From positions 1-33,463 of the forward strand of contig JADLEX010000059.1 of assembly GCA_020845895.1 (NCBI GenBank): a stretch of DNA of 33,463 nucleotides, read 5' to 3'. The notes beneath the pieces are model-generated. The model made no database searches and had not been told where the DNA came from. It worked only from the letters and a program-made list of their open reading frames with translations. The first letter of the stretch is position 1; every line of letters begins with the position of its first letter. A program made the translations under genes and the position numbers. Source of the DNA: Deltaproteobacteria bacterium. Its GTDB lineage: Bacteria > Lernaellota > Lernaellaia > JACKCT01. Shown here one piece after another: positions 1,470 to 32,222 of this stretch.

Positions 1470-1543
1470 AAGCCCTCACCCCTATCCCCTCTCCCGTCAA
1501 TCGGGAGAGGGGTGCTGAGCAACGCGAGGCGGGGTGAGGGCTT
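1470..1543. repeat. Palindromic intergenic element, copy A
   Basis: A 74-bp element with 13-bp perfect terminal inverted repeats (AAGCCCTCACCCC at 1470-1482, its complement at 1531-1543). It encloses an 11-bp perfect hairpin (1486-1496 with 1502-1512, 5-nt loop). It lies between two minus-strand genes. Related copies are at 8671, 11244 and 17935. There is no T-run after the stem, so it is not a classical terminator, although a strong RNA hairpin would form on either strand. Confidence 0.9.
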
Positions 1544-6477: not shown

Positions 6478-8661
6478 ATGCGTGAATCGAGTTCATCGGC
6501 GCTCGTGGTTTTGCTGGTCGCGGGAGTCCTCTCGGCGACGGCGATCTTTGCTCCCGCAACCTCGACATGGGCATGCGAGGAACGCACCCGCGAGGTCACG
6601 GTGCGCCTCATCGACGCGGACGATCTCGCGCGGCTCGATGGCTTGCGCTTCGGCGTCGTGAACCGGATCGGCGACCGCGTCGTTCTGCACCTGACCGACG
6701 CCGACGCCCGCGCCCTCGCGACAATGGACATCGACATCGTCTCCGACAACCCCCTCGTCGCCGCGCCGCCGCGCGCCGACTACCACGATCCCGACGAGGC
6801 GCTCGCCCTCGTGACGCAGTGGGCCGAGTCGTATCCCGATCTCGTCACCGTCGAGACGATCGGCGAGAGCGTCGGCGGGCGGCCGTTGCTGCTCGTGAAG
6901 GTGTCGGACAACGCGGCCGAAGACGAACCCGAGCCCAGCGTGCTCTTCGACGCGTCGATCCACGGCAACGAAAATATCGCCACCGAGGTGGTGCTCGCCT
7001 TCGTGCAACGGCTTCTGGAGGGCTACGGCGAAGACGACACGCTCACCGCGCTCGTGGACGACCACGAGATTTTCGTCGTGCCGATGGTGAACCCCGACGG
7101 CGTGGCGAACGGCAAACGGCGAAACGGCGGAAACGTCGATCTCAACCGAGACCACTCGATCTTCTGGGAAGAAGGCTGGACCGGCAAACCGACCTATGCC
7201 ACGCAGCCCGAAACCCGCGCGATGATCGAGCTTGCCGCGCGCATGAACTTCACCGCGTCGGCCAGCTACCACTCGGGCGCGGTGCTCTTCAACTACCTGT
7301 GGGACACCCTGCCCTCCGGCGTCCACGACGCGCAGGACATCGACGAGCTGCTGATCCTCGCGTCGGGCTACGCCGATCTCGCCGACATGGAAGCCATCGA
7401 AGGCTACGACTGGTTCCAAATCCACGGCAGCAGCGAAGAAACGTATTACGGCATGAACGGCACCCTCGCGGGCATCATCGAGATCGCGAACGGCCAGCCG
7501 CCGCCCGAGGGCATGATCGATGCGATCGCGGACGAGAATTTCGACGCGATGGTCTTCTACACGCGTGTCGCATCCCGCGGGGCTTGGGGATTCGTCTCCG
7601 ACGCCGTCACCGGCGAGCCCATCGCCGCCACCGTTCGCACCACGCACCCCCACTGGCCGATCTATGCCGACGCCGAACTCGGCGATTACCATCGCGTGCT
7701 CGCCCCCGGCGTGACCGACGTGTGGGCCGCCGCGCCCGGCTACCTGGACGCGTTGCCCGAGACCGTCGTGCAGGACGACGACGAGTCGGTGCGCGTCGAT
7801 TTCGCGCTCGAACCCCGCCTCGAATACGTCGGCACGCCGTACAAGGTCGCCGCCGCGAAGATGGCGGATCCCGGCGATGACCACGCCAATACGAGTCGCC
7901 CTTTCATGGCGCTCGGCGAGCCCGACGGCGAGGCGTTTCACCTGGGCAAGGGCGGGTTCATCGTCTTCGATATGGGCGAGACGTTGCCGATCGACGACAT
8001 CGACGGCCCCGACTTCACCGTCGTGCAGGCGGGCGCGAGCGCGGCCGATGAGGGCTACGAAGTCTTCGTCTCCGAGAGTTGGACCGGACCGTGGACGTCC
8101 ATCGGCTCCGCATTCGGCACCTCGTCGTTCGACCTCGCCGGAGGTCCGCGAAGCGACGTGCGTTATGTGCGTATCGACGACGACGGCGACGGAGTCGCGG
8201 ATGCGCCCGACGCCGGATTCGACCTCGACGCGCTCGTCTACGAACGCGCCTGCCCCGCGCCGGTGCCGGACTTCGGCGCTTCGCCCATCACGGGTTCCGC
8301 GCCGCTCACCGTGGCGTTCGCGCCGAGCATGGGCGGGCGACCGGGGTGCGTTGAATCGGTCGCGTGGGATTTCGGCGACGGCGACGGCGCGACGGACGGC
8401 ATCGTCGAGCACACCTACACCGAGCCCGGCGTTTACGACGTGGCGCTCACCGCGACGGGCCCCGGCGGCGAGGTCACGAAACTCAAAACCGCGCTCATCC
8501 TGGTCGGTGAAGGCGACGACGACGATGACACGTCCGACGACGACGTCTCGCCGGATGACGACACGTCGGAAGACGACGACATGACCGACGACGATGCGGA
8601 TGACGACGACGCGGATATCGCCGGGGACGACGACGACGACAATGGTGCGTGCTGCGGCTAG
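6478..8661 (+). CDS. Secreted M14-family zinc carboxypeptidase with PKD domain and Asp-rich tail
   Basis: A 727-aa exported metallopeptidase. A Sec signal peptide covers about residues 1-32. The M14 domain (about 100-355) has the zinc ligands in HGNEN (H162, E165), VDLNRD, the third ligand in SYHSG (H265) and the catalytic glutamate in IIEIANG (E335), so it looks active. Next come a carboxypeptidase-regulatory-like beta domain (about 365-450), a beta-rich domain of unknown type (about 455-590), a PKD domain (about 594-677, with WDFGDGDG) and a 49-residue tail almost wholly Asp with Ser/Thr/Glu, ending CCG. The tail could bind calcium, act as a spacer or carry a sorting signal; this is inference. 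A weak TTGTGA-18-TAGCAT promoter may lie in the 40-bp divergent gap. Confidence 0.93.
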   Translation: MRESSSSALVVLLVAGVLSATAIFAPATSTWACEERTREVTVRLIDADDLARLDGLRFGVVNRIGDRVVLHLTDADARALATMDIDIVSDNPLVAAPPRADYHDPDEALALVTQWAESYPDLVTVETIGESVGGRPLLLVKVSDNAAEDEPEPSVLFDASIHGNENIATEVVLAFVQRLLEGYGEDDTLTALVDDHEIFVVPMVNPDGVANGKRRNGGNVDLNRDHSIFWEEGWTGKPTYATQPETRAMIELAARMNFTASASYHSGAVLFNYLWDTLPSGVHDAQDIDELLILASGYADLADMEAIEGYDWFQIHGSSEETYYGMNGTLAGIIEIANGQPPPEGMIDAIADENFDAMVFYTRVASRGAWGFVSDAVTGEPIAATVRTTHPHWPIYADAELGDYHRVLAPGVTDVWAAAPGYLDALPETVVQDDDESVRVDFALEPRLEYVGTPYKVAAAKMADPGDDHANTSRPFMALGEPDGEAFHLGKGGFIVFDMGETLPIDDIDGPDFTVVQAGASAADEGYEVFVSESWTGPWTSIGSAFGTSSFDLAGGPRSDVRYVRIDDDGDGVADAPDAGFDLDALVYERACPAPVPDFGASPITGSAPLTVAFAPSMGGRPGCVESVAWDFGDGDGATDGIVEHTYTEPGVYDVALTATGPGGEVTKLKTALILVGEGDDDDDTSDDDVSPDDDTSEDDDMTDDDADDDDADIAGDDDDDNGACCG

Positions 8662-8769
8662 AGCGCGGCGCTCGCCCCCGTCCCCTCTCCCGTCAGACGG
8701 GAGAGGGGTGCCGAGCAACGCGAGGCGGGGTGAGGGTTCCCGCCCGCGCACCGGCGCTTGCTGCGGCTA
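8650..8769. mobile_element. Possible insertion: repeat copy B bounded by 11-bp direct repeats
   Basis: TGCTGCGGCTA occurs exactly at 8650-8660 and again at 8759-8769, on either side of the palindromic element. Just inside are short inverted ends (AGCGC at 8662-8666, GCGCT at 8754-8758). This is the layout of a non-autonomous element with a target-site duplication. The left direct repeat contains the TAG stop of the peptidase gene and the right one contains the TAG stop of the convergent gene. Without an empty site for comparison, local duplication is equally possible. Confidence 0.45.
8671..8736. repeat. Palindromic intergenic element, copy B
   Basis: Same family and orientation as the copy at 1470. 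The central hairpin is a perfect 13-bp palindrome arm pair at 8682-8708 (11 bp if a 5-nt loop is allowed), followed by the shared spacer GAGCAACGCGAGGC and the terminal GGGGTGAGGG. It separates convergent genes and may act as a two-way transcription barrier. Confidence 0.9.
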
Positions 8770-9795
8770 ATCGGAATCCGTCAGCAACGCTTCCTGCCCG
8801 GTTCTGATCGACTCGCGGATCGCCTCGCGAAAACGCGCGATCCGAATCGCCTCGAGATCCGCGAATTCCGGCTTCGAACGATAGCGCGCCGCGCGGACGA
8901 GATCGGCCGCGGCGGCCCGATACGCCGTCGTGGGGTCTTCGTCGAAGCGCGCGATCGGCACCTCGTACCGATCGCCGATATACGTGGCGAGCGCGGGCCC
9001 ATCGCCATCGCGCCCCGTGAGCGCGCCGCCGAAGATGTAGCCATCCGTGCCCGCGAATTCGAACGACTCAGCCACCGGCTCCAACGGCCCGCGCACCACG
9101 ATGCCCGGCGCACGCACCGCCTCGTACACACCGAAACGCCGCGCGCCCGCCTCGCCGGCGTTGTGCCACGTCACGAGCGTCGCCGCCTCGGTCGTCCACG
9201 CGTGAACGGCGCGCACCGGACCGAGCAGCGCGGCGAGCGGCAGCGCCTCGAACTCCGGCCCGCACGCGATCGGCGCGGCGGGCAGCGGCTCGGTCACGAT
9301 CGGCTCGTCGGCGCGGCCATGACGCCCGGCCACCGAACGCACCCGCAGCGTTTGCACGTCGCCGATGCGCGTCGCGTTCAGCAGCTCGCGCGCGGCGGTG
9401 ACGATCGGGCTGTAGTGGGCGGGCGAATACACGCGCAGCGCCACCTTCGCCTGTTTCGCCTCCACCATCGCATCGACCGCCGTCGCGTCATGCAGCGCGG
9501 TGCCGCGAATGCCGACGGAGATTCCCGATTCGAGGCATTTCTCCGCCACGTCCAACGCCTCGAGCACCGGAGTGTCGATCTCCGCGATCCACACCTCCGA
9601 GTTGCCCAGCACGTCACCCAGGCTGCGAAACACGGCGAGCTCGGGGAATTGCCGCGCGAGACGCGTCGCCGCGTCCGGATCGTCGTCGTACACGCCGACG
9701 AGGTGCACGCCGGCGAGCGGGCGATAGGCCTCGCACCACACGCGCGCGTGCGGGCCCGCTCCGATCAACACGACTCCGATCGCCTCTTCAGCCAT
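8767..9795 (-). CDS. Gfo/Idh/MocA-like protein lacking catalytic signatures
   Basis: A 342-aa protein with an N-terminal Rossmann fold (VVLIGAGPHARVWCEAY) and the general length and layout of Gfo/Idh/MocA sugar dehydrogenases. Where the family has the EKP motif with its catalytic lysine, this protein reads GIRGTAL. Where most members have a His in a GxHxxD-like helix, it reads CGPEFEALPLAALLG. Both losses are seen directly from the translation; loss of dehydrogenase activity is inference. It may be a binding or regulatory partner of the intact paralogue encoded upstream, or act on another chemistry. It starts 6 bp after the small gene upstream and ends in the TAG of a short direct repeat. Confidence 0.7.
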   Translation of the reverse strand: MAEEAIGVVLIGAGPHARVWCEAYRPLAGVHLVGVYDDDPDAATRLARQFPELAVFRSLGDVLGNSEVWIAEIDTPVLEALDVAEKCLESGISVGIRGTALHDATAVDAMVEAKQAKVALRVYSPAHYSPIVTAARELLNATRIGDVQTLRVRSVAGRHGRADEPIVTEPLPAAPIACGPEFEALPLAALLGPVRAVHAWTTEAATLVTWHNAGEAGARRFGVYEAVRAPGIVVRGPLEPVAESFEFAGTDGYIFGGALTGRDGDGPALATYIGDRYEVPIARFDEDPTTAYRAAAADLVRAARYRSKPEFADLEAIRIARFREAIRESIRTGQEALLTDSD

Positions 9796-11243: not shown

Positions 11244-11315
11244 CCCTCACCCTTGCCCCTCTCCCGCCCGGCGGGAAAGGGGTGCCTCGAGCGAACGCGA
11301 GGGACGGGGTGAGGG
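11244..11315. repeat. Palindromic intergenic element, copy C
   Basis: Bounded by CCCTCACCC and its near-complement GGGGTGAGGG. The central hairpin has a 12-bp stem with one mismatch around a CCG loop. It sits between divergent genes, unlike copies B and D which lie between convergent genes. Same orientation as copies A and B. Confidence 0.88.
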
Positions 11316-17934: not shown

Positions 17935-18005
17935 CCCTAACCCGGCTCGCTTCGCTCGGCACCCCTCTCCCGTCATGACGAGAGAGGGGACGGGGGTGAG
18001 GGCTT
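17935..18005. repeat. Palindromic intergenic element, copy D (inverted)
   Basis: Same family as copies A-C but in the opposite orientation: the spacer reads GGCTCGCTTCGCTCGGC before the hairpin instead of after it. The hairpin pairs CCCCTCTC with GAGAGGGG and CGTCA with TGACG around one mismatch. It separates the GT2 gene from the convergent FHA gene. Confidence 0.88.
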
Positions 18006-32073: not shown

Positions 32074-32106
32074 CAACGTTTCGAATAACCCGCTGTGGCG
32101 CACTTC

Positions 32107-32222
32107 CTGTCATCCCGACCGGAGCGAAGCGCCCTCCGCCCTGTCATCCCGACGGGAACGAAGCGCCCTCTGCCCTGTCATCCCGACCGGAGCGAGTGAA
32201 GCGAGCGGAGCGGAGGGATCCC
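32107..32222. repeat. 34-bp tandem repeat of a CTGTCATCCCGACCGGAGCG-type intergenic element
   Basis: Copies at 32107-32140 and 32141-32174 share most bases; a third begins at 32175 and runs on through GAGTGAAGCGAGCGGAGCG to about 32222. The unit belongs to a widespread class of short intergenic repeats containing GTCATCCCGA and GAGCGAAGCG. It lies between UbiA and the AT-richer RES gene, marking the border of the compositional change. The remaining gap, 32223-32334, shows no gene, tRNA or obvious attachment site. Confidence 0.92.

Follow-up and report, generated by a model that had tools for sequence, protein, structure and literature searches.

A repeated gene end on both sides of a palindromic element

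In the window, the 33,463-nucleotide stretch of DNA analysed here, two convergent genes end on either side of a palindromic element, and an exact 11-bp direct repeat, TGCTGCGGCTA, stands at the two gene ends (Table 1). This arrangement raises the question of whether the repeat records the arrival of a mobile element and, if so, of what kind. The repeat occurs exactly twice in the whole 4,975,318-base genome, both times at this locus (8650-8769). A reading of the sequence alone had stated that the repeat carries both stop codons. This holds for the exactness of the repeat and for the minus-strand gene, whose stop (CTA, 8767-8769) lies wholly within the right copy; of the plus-strand stop, only TA lies within the left copy, and the G at 8661 falls outside it. 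Removing bases 8661-8758 (98 bases) on paper, together with one copy of the repeat, would leave a single CTAA holding both stops.

Table 1. Features at the copy B locus and further element copies in the window.
Feature	Position	Strand	Remarks
M14 zinc carboxypeptidase	6478..8661	+	PKD domain, Asp-rich tail with GACCG end
Left copy of the 11-bp direct repeat	8650..8660	+	last codons CCG and TA of the peptidase stop
Spacer, left repeat copy to element	8661..8668	.	8 bp
BoxC-type palindromic element, copy B	8669..8736	+	68 bp between family ends
Degenerate left end of copy B	8669..8678	+	family CCCTCACCCC
Core hairpin of copy B	8682..8708	.	two perfect 13-bp arms
Right end of copy B	8727..8736	+	GGGGTGAGGG
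Spacer, element to right repeat copy	8737..8758	.	22 bp
Right copy of the 11-bp direct repeat	8759..8769	+	holds minus-strand stop CTA; plus-strand reading CCG-TA(A)
Gfo/Idh/MocA-like oxidoreductase	8767..9795	-	match slightly below the Pfam cut-off
Further element copy	1473..1540	+	
Further element copy	11244..11315	+	
Further element copy	17935..18002	-	

The repeat can be extended to 18 nt with three mismatches, all at third codon positions, and both extended copies read Gly-Ala-Cys-Cys-Gly-stop (GACCG-stop). A tail of the GACCG type is the tail of Asp-rich proteins, and the pattern Asp-Asp-x-Gly-Cys-Cys-Gly is found at 12 places in the genome. Other Asp-rich proteins of the genome end in GGCCG, GGCCGC or GCGC, and GxACCG-stop fits 5 places, two of which are the 8650/8759 pair. 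Additionally, we observed that the products of window positions 8509-8661, of L097, L098, L099 and L101, and of the relatives L065, L066, L070 and L071 are secreted-type proteins of this lineage that close with a short Cys tail (GGCCG, GGCCGC, GCGC, ACCG) after an Asp-rich run. This combination has the look of a C-terminal signal for sorting or anchoring that is so far undescribed.

In G001 and G002, two genomes of the same family, both oxidoreductases and the convergent peptidase are conserved, and neither genome has an exact hairpin of the copy B type. In both, another small gene, presumably PPC/DUF296-like, lies downstream of the peptidase, between it and the oxidoreductase (L064, L065); a search of the window's genome, run without a positive control, gave no match to this gene. 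No relative closer than G001 and G002 was found, and none of the closest relatives in the GTDB 220 collection has a close oxidoreductase homologue.

The element is a BoxC-type palindrome

The family to which copy B belongs has the layout CCCTCACCCC - about 3 nt - CCCCTCTCCCGTC..GACGGGAGAGGGG - small hairpin - GGGGTGAGGG. The sequence-only reading had described a dispersed palindromic element, and this was borne out, since 48 copies with perfect outer arms stand in the genome; four copies, copy B included, lie in the window. The computed fold of the family consensus is a three-way junction (z -8.9), and the fold of copy B, whose left end is degenerate, resembles it but is poorer. The ends CCCTCACCCC and GGGGTGAGGG form terminal inverted repeats, as in a MITE. 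A possible right-hand extension shared by the copies at 1473 and 8669 (a BLAST match extended to 8758) was rejected; their right flanks reach the 99%-99.9% level of random 22-mers, yet two other copies score equal or higher. A separate repeat of the window, at 32105-32200, consists of three near-identical tandem units CCTGTCATCCCGACCGGAGCGA(AG) with a step of about 34 bp.

BoxC, PIT or intrastrand-triplex palindromes have been known since the 1990s, and we know of no mobiliser for them. That the element is a member of this group is well supported by its sequence. Specifically, the family copies, which are many in the genome, contain a pyrimidine block, a purine block and a third purine block in the order found in the TM(ECO) list of PMC4666352, as far as that list is accessible, the third block of copy B being degenerate on one side. 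The blocks are the same as in the TM(ECO) repeats, CCCTCTCCC - loop - GGGAGAGGG - short loop - GGGTGAGGG, and both kinds are multicopy (Holder et al. 2015, PMC4666352, accessible text). Unlike TM(ECO), the copies here are about 68 bp long and carry a third block at each end as well as a second, small hairpin; some lie inside a gene. According to the accessible text of the same paper, the TM(ECO) repeats were earlier named BoxC and PIT, and E. coli K-12 has 23 copies, always intergenic; the text describes inverted pairs, raised instability around the repeats, no link to transposons and no linked mobility gene. The core hairpin is also the same as that of one hundred CCCTCTCCC..GGGAGAGGG repeats of Enterobacter sp. 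638, which the accessible text of PMC2869309 proposes as terminators, with no nuclease link.

The flanking repeat is a feature of copy B, not of the family

The sequence-only reading had likened the 11-bp repeat to the target-site duplication of a MITE-type element and had proposed that other genomic copies be checked for flanking duplications. We found 59 hairpins, of which 52 entered the flank comparison, the rest having no recognisable ends or being too long. As a family property the likeness failed: a lack of flanking duplications at other copies, which that reading had named as refuting it, is what the comparison showed. At copy B the repeat stands 8 bp (left) and 22 bp (right) away from the element ends, instead of abutting them as in a MITE, and copy B alone has an exact flanking repeat of at least 9 bp (0 of the 51 other copies), the next longest being 8 and 7 bp. 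The mean longest flanking repeat was 5.10 bp over the 52 copies and 5.15 bp when the flanks were mispaired, and repeats anchored at the element ends averaged 0.92 versus 0.98 bp. Within 200 bp, the repeat score of element sites did not exceed that of controls (8.44, n=50, versus 9.05, n=400), two of the 52 copies lying too close to a stretch end for this comparison. When flanks of different copies were mispaired, a match of at least 11 bp appeared in 1 of 2,652 cases. Between 40-bp flanks lying 68 bp apart in the genome's sampled DNA, an exact match of at least 11 bp arises by chance in 0.24-0.32% of placements (21,340 and 23,191 overlapping placements), so that about 0.15 such matches would be expected over 52 copies.

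Related repeats outside this genome gave the same picture. At six E. coli loci some strains carry the repeat, while others are without all or part of it, and target duplication was absent from all six; in nine pairwise alignments, no single target copy is duplicated in the filled state. At adk and lldD the spacer blocks are swapped from the stop codon onward, and at alx-sstT part of an inverted pair is absent between repeated blocks. The outer flanks of 18 two-sided units built around a DUF559 gene, described below, show no general duplication either (mean 5.6 versus 4.5), the exceptions being L282 (17 bp) and L287 (8 bp). On the genome copies, the E. coli loci, the DUF559 unit flanks and the 200-bp flanks, we therefore rejected the idea that target-site duplication marks the family. 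Since the other copies stay near the null rates, the repeat is an oddity of copy B, and a striking flanking repeat alone is no proof of transposition.

BoxC elements flank genes for DUF559 nucleases

A candidate mobiliser is the DUF559 nuclease. Profile A1 matches the endonuclease-like protein 3hrl (E 1.8e-36) and the mobile intron protein 3r3p (E 1.1e-5), and all 13 invariant columns of A1 are present in the DUF559 domain of the window's own genome. The accessible part of PMC1189080 places YcjD in the PD-(D/E)XK superfamily near Vsr, and that of PMC12907096 describes a Caulobacter DUF559-domain protein as responsible for an SOS response in cells without a methyltransferase.

The only PF04480 match of the genome has element copies on both sides. 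It lies in an ORF of 1,415 aa (C97:37898-42145; L072, G000) that encodes an MmeI-type restriction-modification protein with several in-frame element copies, and its DUF559 domain sits between two groups of these copies, between the helicase-spacer and methyltransferase domains. In E. coli K-12, ycjD is a DUF559 gene (1351407-1351760) with a BoxC at 1351205-1351239, and its last codons pass through a CCCTCTCCC block. Among the listed E. coli strains that lack ycjD, no simple empty site was seen.

Among the G-series genomes, a BoxC lies within 300 bp at 13 of 45 DUF559 loci (12 of 30 genomes), on both sides at 6, and 32 loci have none at this distance. In the same genomes, none of 40 control windows has one within 300 bp (Fisher p 1.2e-4, kinship ignored), and 3 of the 40 have one anywhere in 3.3 kb. 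The 45 loci comprise the 30 in the tool's listing and another 15 with E <1e-20; left aside were three others that also passed this limit, of which one lies beside L160 and two at contig ends, and every weaker match. The pattern used for the 45 was loose (any base at the block centre, loop to 25), looser than the strict pattern of the genome-level counts below. In an earlier comparison the motif was seen at 1 of 30 control loci, which was the window's own peptidase gene. Counted by genome with kinship ignored, the strict pattern occurs in 16 of 31 genomes with a strong DUF559 match against 15 of 114 others (p 1.9e-5), the limit for a strong match (E 1e-10) having been chosen after the list was seen. 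With all DUF559 matches included the link is weaker (17/52 versus 14/93, p 0.019, kinship again ignored), and 4 of the 13 genomes with at least 10 BoxC hairpins have no strong DUF559.

Alignment A2, scanned against named genomes, matched 566 relatives, and the best 80 of these were examined; because they were ranked by likeness to one query, the subfamily of that query is over-represented. Of the five A2 members, four come from BoxC-bearing loci, and the query itself comes from a locus without BoxC. With kinship ignored, 53 of the best 80 of 566 have a BoxC at a distance of no more than 300 bp, 31 of them on both sides, and 27 have none. Within the first 100 bp, a BoxC is present upstream at 37 of 80 loci and downstream at 40 of 80 (77/160 sides), compared with 15 of 1,808 of the 100-bp bins past 300 bp. 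The positive loci among these best 80 include Betaproteobacteria, Gammaproteobacteria, Nitrospirae, Deltaproteobacteria, a Planctomycetota MAG and an Anaerolineales MAG. We regard the position of BoxC beside DUF559 genes as well supported by the sequences. A literature search, with subscription papers outside its scope, gave no paper linking DUF559 or YcjD to BoxC or palindromic repeats, and the link is proposed here.

Flanking elements face inward, and some units lie in frame inside genes

In the best 80 of 566, the first block met upstream of the gene is of the purine kind in 51 of 56 loci, and the first one downstream is of the pyrimidine kind in 50 of 55, which means that both BoxC elements face inward. 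The full three-block layout was present on both sides in 18 of the 80 loci, again inverted and inward-facing around the DUF559 gene. Of four gene-less inverted pairs examined in E. coli, three (hrpB, fepB, alx) have the same layout, and the pair at lldD has the opposite one.

The DUF559 ORF continues into the downstream BoxC in 41 of the 53 BoxC-flanked loci among the best 80 of 566. A Pfam scan covered seventeen ORFs, and three more from G-series genomes. One open frame contains DUF559 and BoxC blocks in ValRS (L263, L300), Mfd (L282), EarP (L252), HsdS (L237), MmeI (L268), M14 peptidase (L265, L302) and the succinate dehydrogenase flavinylation factor (L289, L298), and the hosts of DUF559 in G004 and G079 are of the MmeI and Eco57I types. 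The match to the host family is split in two in L263 and L252, with DUF559 between the host parts. Elsewhere in the ValRS ORF that bears the unit in L263, at aa 686-693, there is a lone BoxC hairpin in frame. In the scanned ORFs every intein model stayed below its cut-off, one sub-threshold match being seen in L160. In L310 and L273 (HsdS) and in L241 (MeaB), DUF559 is in frame without BoxC blocks; other DUF559 subfamilies may use other ends.

Origin of the copy B repeat

How the repeat arose at copy B itself is a separate matter. Our tentative preference, to which we give somewhat less than an even chance, is that it would be a single local duplication that arose as the 98-bp segment 8661-8758 entered between two genes whose stops overlapped as CTAA; at such an overlap both genes would stay whole only if the insertion copied the ends of both. 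A gene-end repeat beside a BoxC was also observed in E. coli (L151, 1351205-1351460), where the 3' end of ycjD recurs at a distance of 106 bp, past a degenerate BoxC. This resembles the 109-bp spacing at copy B, and two cases make no rule.

Chance, in a GC-rich, tail-coding context, is a rather unlikely source of the 11-bp match. The placement rate given above makes such a match conceivable, the more so as no other copy has one, but the 11-mer occurs only twice in 5 Mb and the mispaired flanks reached this length a single time. It is rather unlikely that the right copy is the relic of a second Asp-rich gene tail that formerly lay between the two genes, the two tails being alike from selection for GACCG-stop. 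Such a history would fit the shared GACCG-stop with differences at third codon positions only, the recurrence of such tails in the genome, and the tandem M14 paralogues with similar tails in relatives of the same class; however, no Asp-rich coding sequence lies upstream of the right copy, and a GxACCG-stop is found at so few genome places that this pair makes up two of the five. Finally, insertion of a MITE-type element by a DDE-type transposase with an 11-bp target-site duplication, for which the exact repeat, unique in the genome, the inverted ends and the dispersed copies would speak, is highly improbable given a repeat that does not abut the ends, no comparable repeat at the 51 other copies, wider flanks no richer in repeats than controls, and none in the E. 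coli relatives.

A proposed mobile unit of BoxC ends and a DUF559 nuclease

Taken jointly, the best explanation, to which we assign a probability of about 0.55, is that the element is a small non-autonomous BoxC, that BoxC elements are the ends of a unit moved by DUF559, and that the copy B repeat is a local duplication. The proposed unit would consist of a BoxC, a DUF559 nuclease gene and an inverted BoxC. DUF559, a PD-(D/E)XK nuclease resembling Vsr and homing endonucleases, would cut at or near the BoxC ends, and repair of the break would place copies of the unit, or of BoxC ends alone, between genes and at times within genes in frame. Such insertion would proceed without a fixed target-site duplication. 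From the sequence comparisons we infer, on good grounds, that DUF559 would be the mobiliser of BoxC. The fuller proposal, in which BoxC elements are the ends and non-autonomous derivatives of an element with the Vsr-like DUF559 nuclease as its sole gene, inserting without target duplication and at times in frame (valS, mfd) with BoxC translated as linkers, stands at about even odds.

A somewhat unlikely alternative is that DUF559 does not move BoxC, and that the two co-occur because they accumulate in shared unstable spacers or because each has a role in repair. The instability of BoxC loci (PMC4666352, accessible text), the Vsr-like nature of DUF559 proteins and the many DUF559 genes with no BoxC would all agree with mere co-occurrence. 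Against it, most blocks are found no more than 100 bp away, in inverted orientation on the two sides, and they enter unrelated genes in frame together with DUF559; accumulation at hot spots does not predict such tight inverted flanking or joint in-frame units. A REP-type identity of the element, with movement by a REP-associated tyrosine transposase, is improbable, because, although the genome has one such gene (PF01797; NF047646; L073, G000:C124:13213-13455), the only one found, no element copy lies in the 4.5 kb around it and the nearest listed copy on the contig is about 13.5 kb away, whereas DUF559 genes have adjacent, inverted, inward-facing BoxC.

Under the DUF559 model, a nuclease gene found directly between inverted BoxC elements in several phyla would give a concrete, testable answer to how BoxC spread. 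The sequences also show that in-frame positions inside genes are open to such units.

Comparison with known systems

The proposed unit shares features with other known systems. With the EDxHD/Vsr-like homing endonucleases (3r3p; PMC9403480, accessible text) it has in common a related nuclease domain, and units here lie in frame inside valS and mfd. Unlike those endonucleases, it is associated with no intron or intein found here, and has BoxC ends instead and many sites. The Rickettsia palindromic elements are palindromes that lie in frame in protein genes. The in-frame palindromes here are alike in this respect, but their sequence differs, and a nuclease gene accompanies them. In RAYT-REPIN systems, short palindromes in inverted pairs flank the gene of an HUH tyrosine transposase, and non-autonomous pairs are present elsewhere. 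The arrangement described here is similar in its short palindromes, inverted pairs, nuclease-type gene between them and non-autonomous pairs at other places (PMC3116915, accessible text). It differs in block sequence and in its gene, which encodes a Vsr-like DUF559 protein of the PD-(D/E)XK type rather than an HUH tyrosine transposase. If the model is true, BoxC and DUF559 would form a counterpart of the RAYT-REPIN systems built on a homing-type nuclease.
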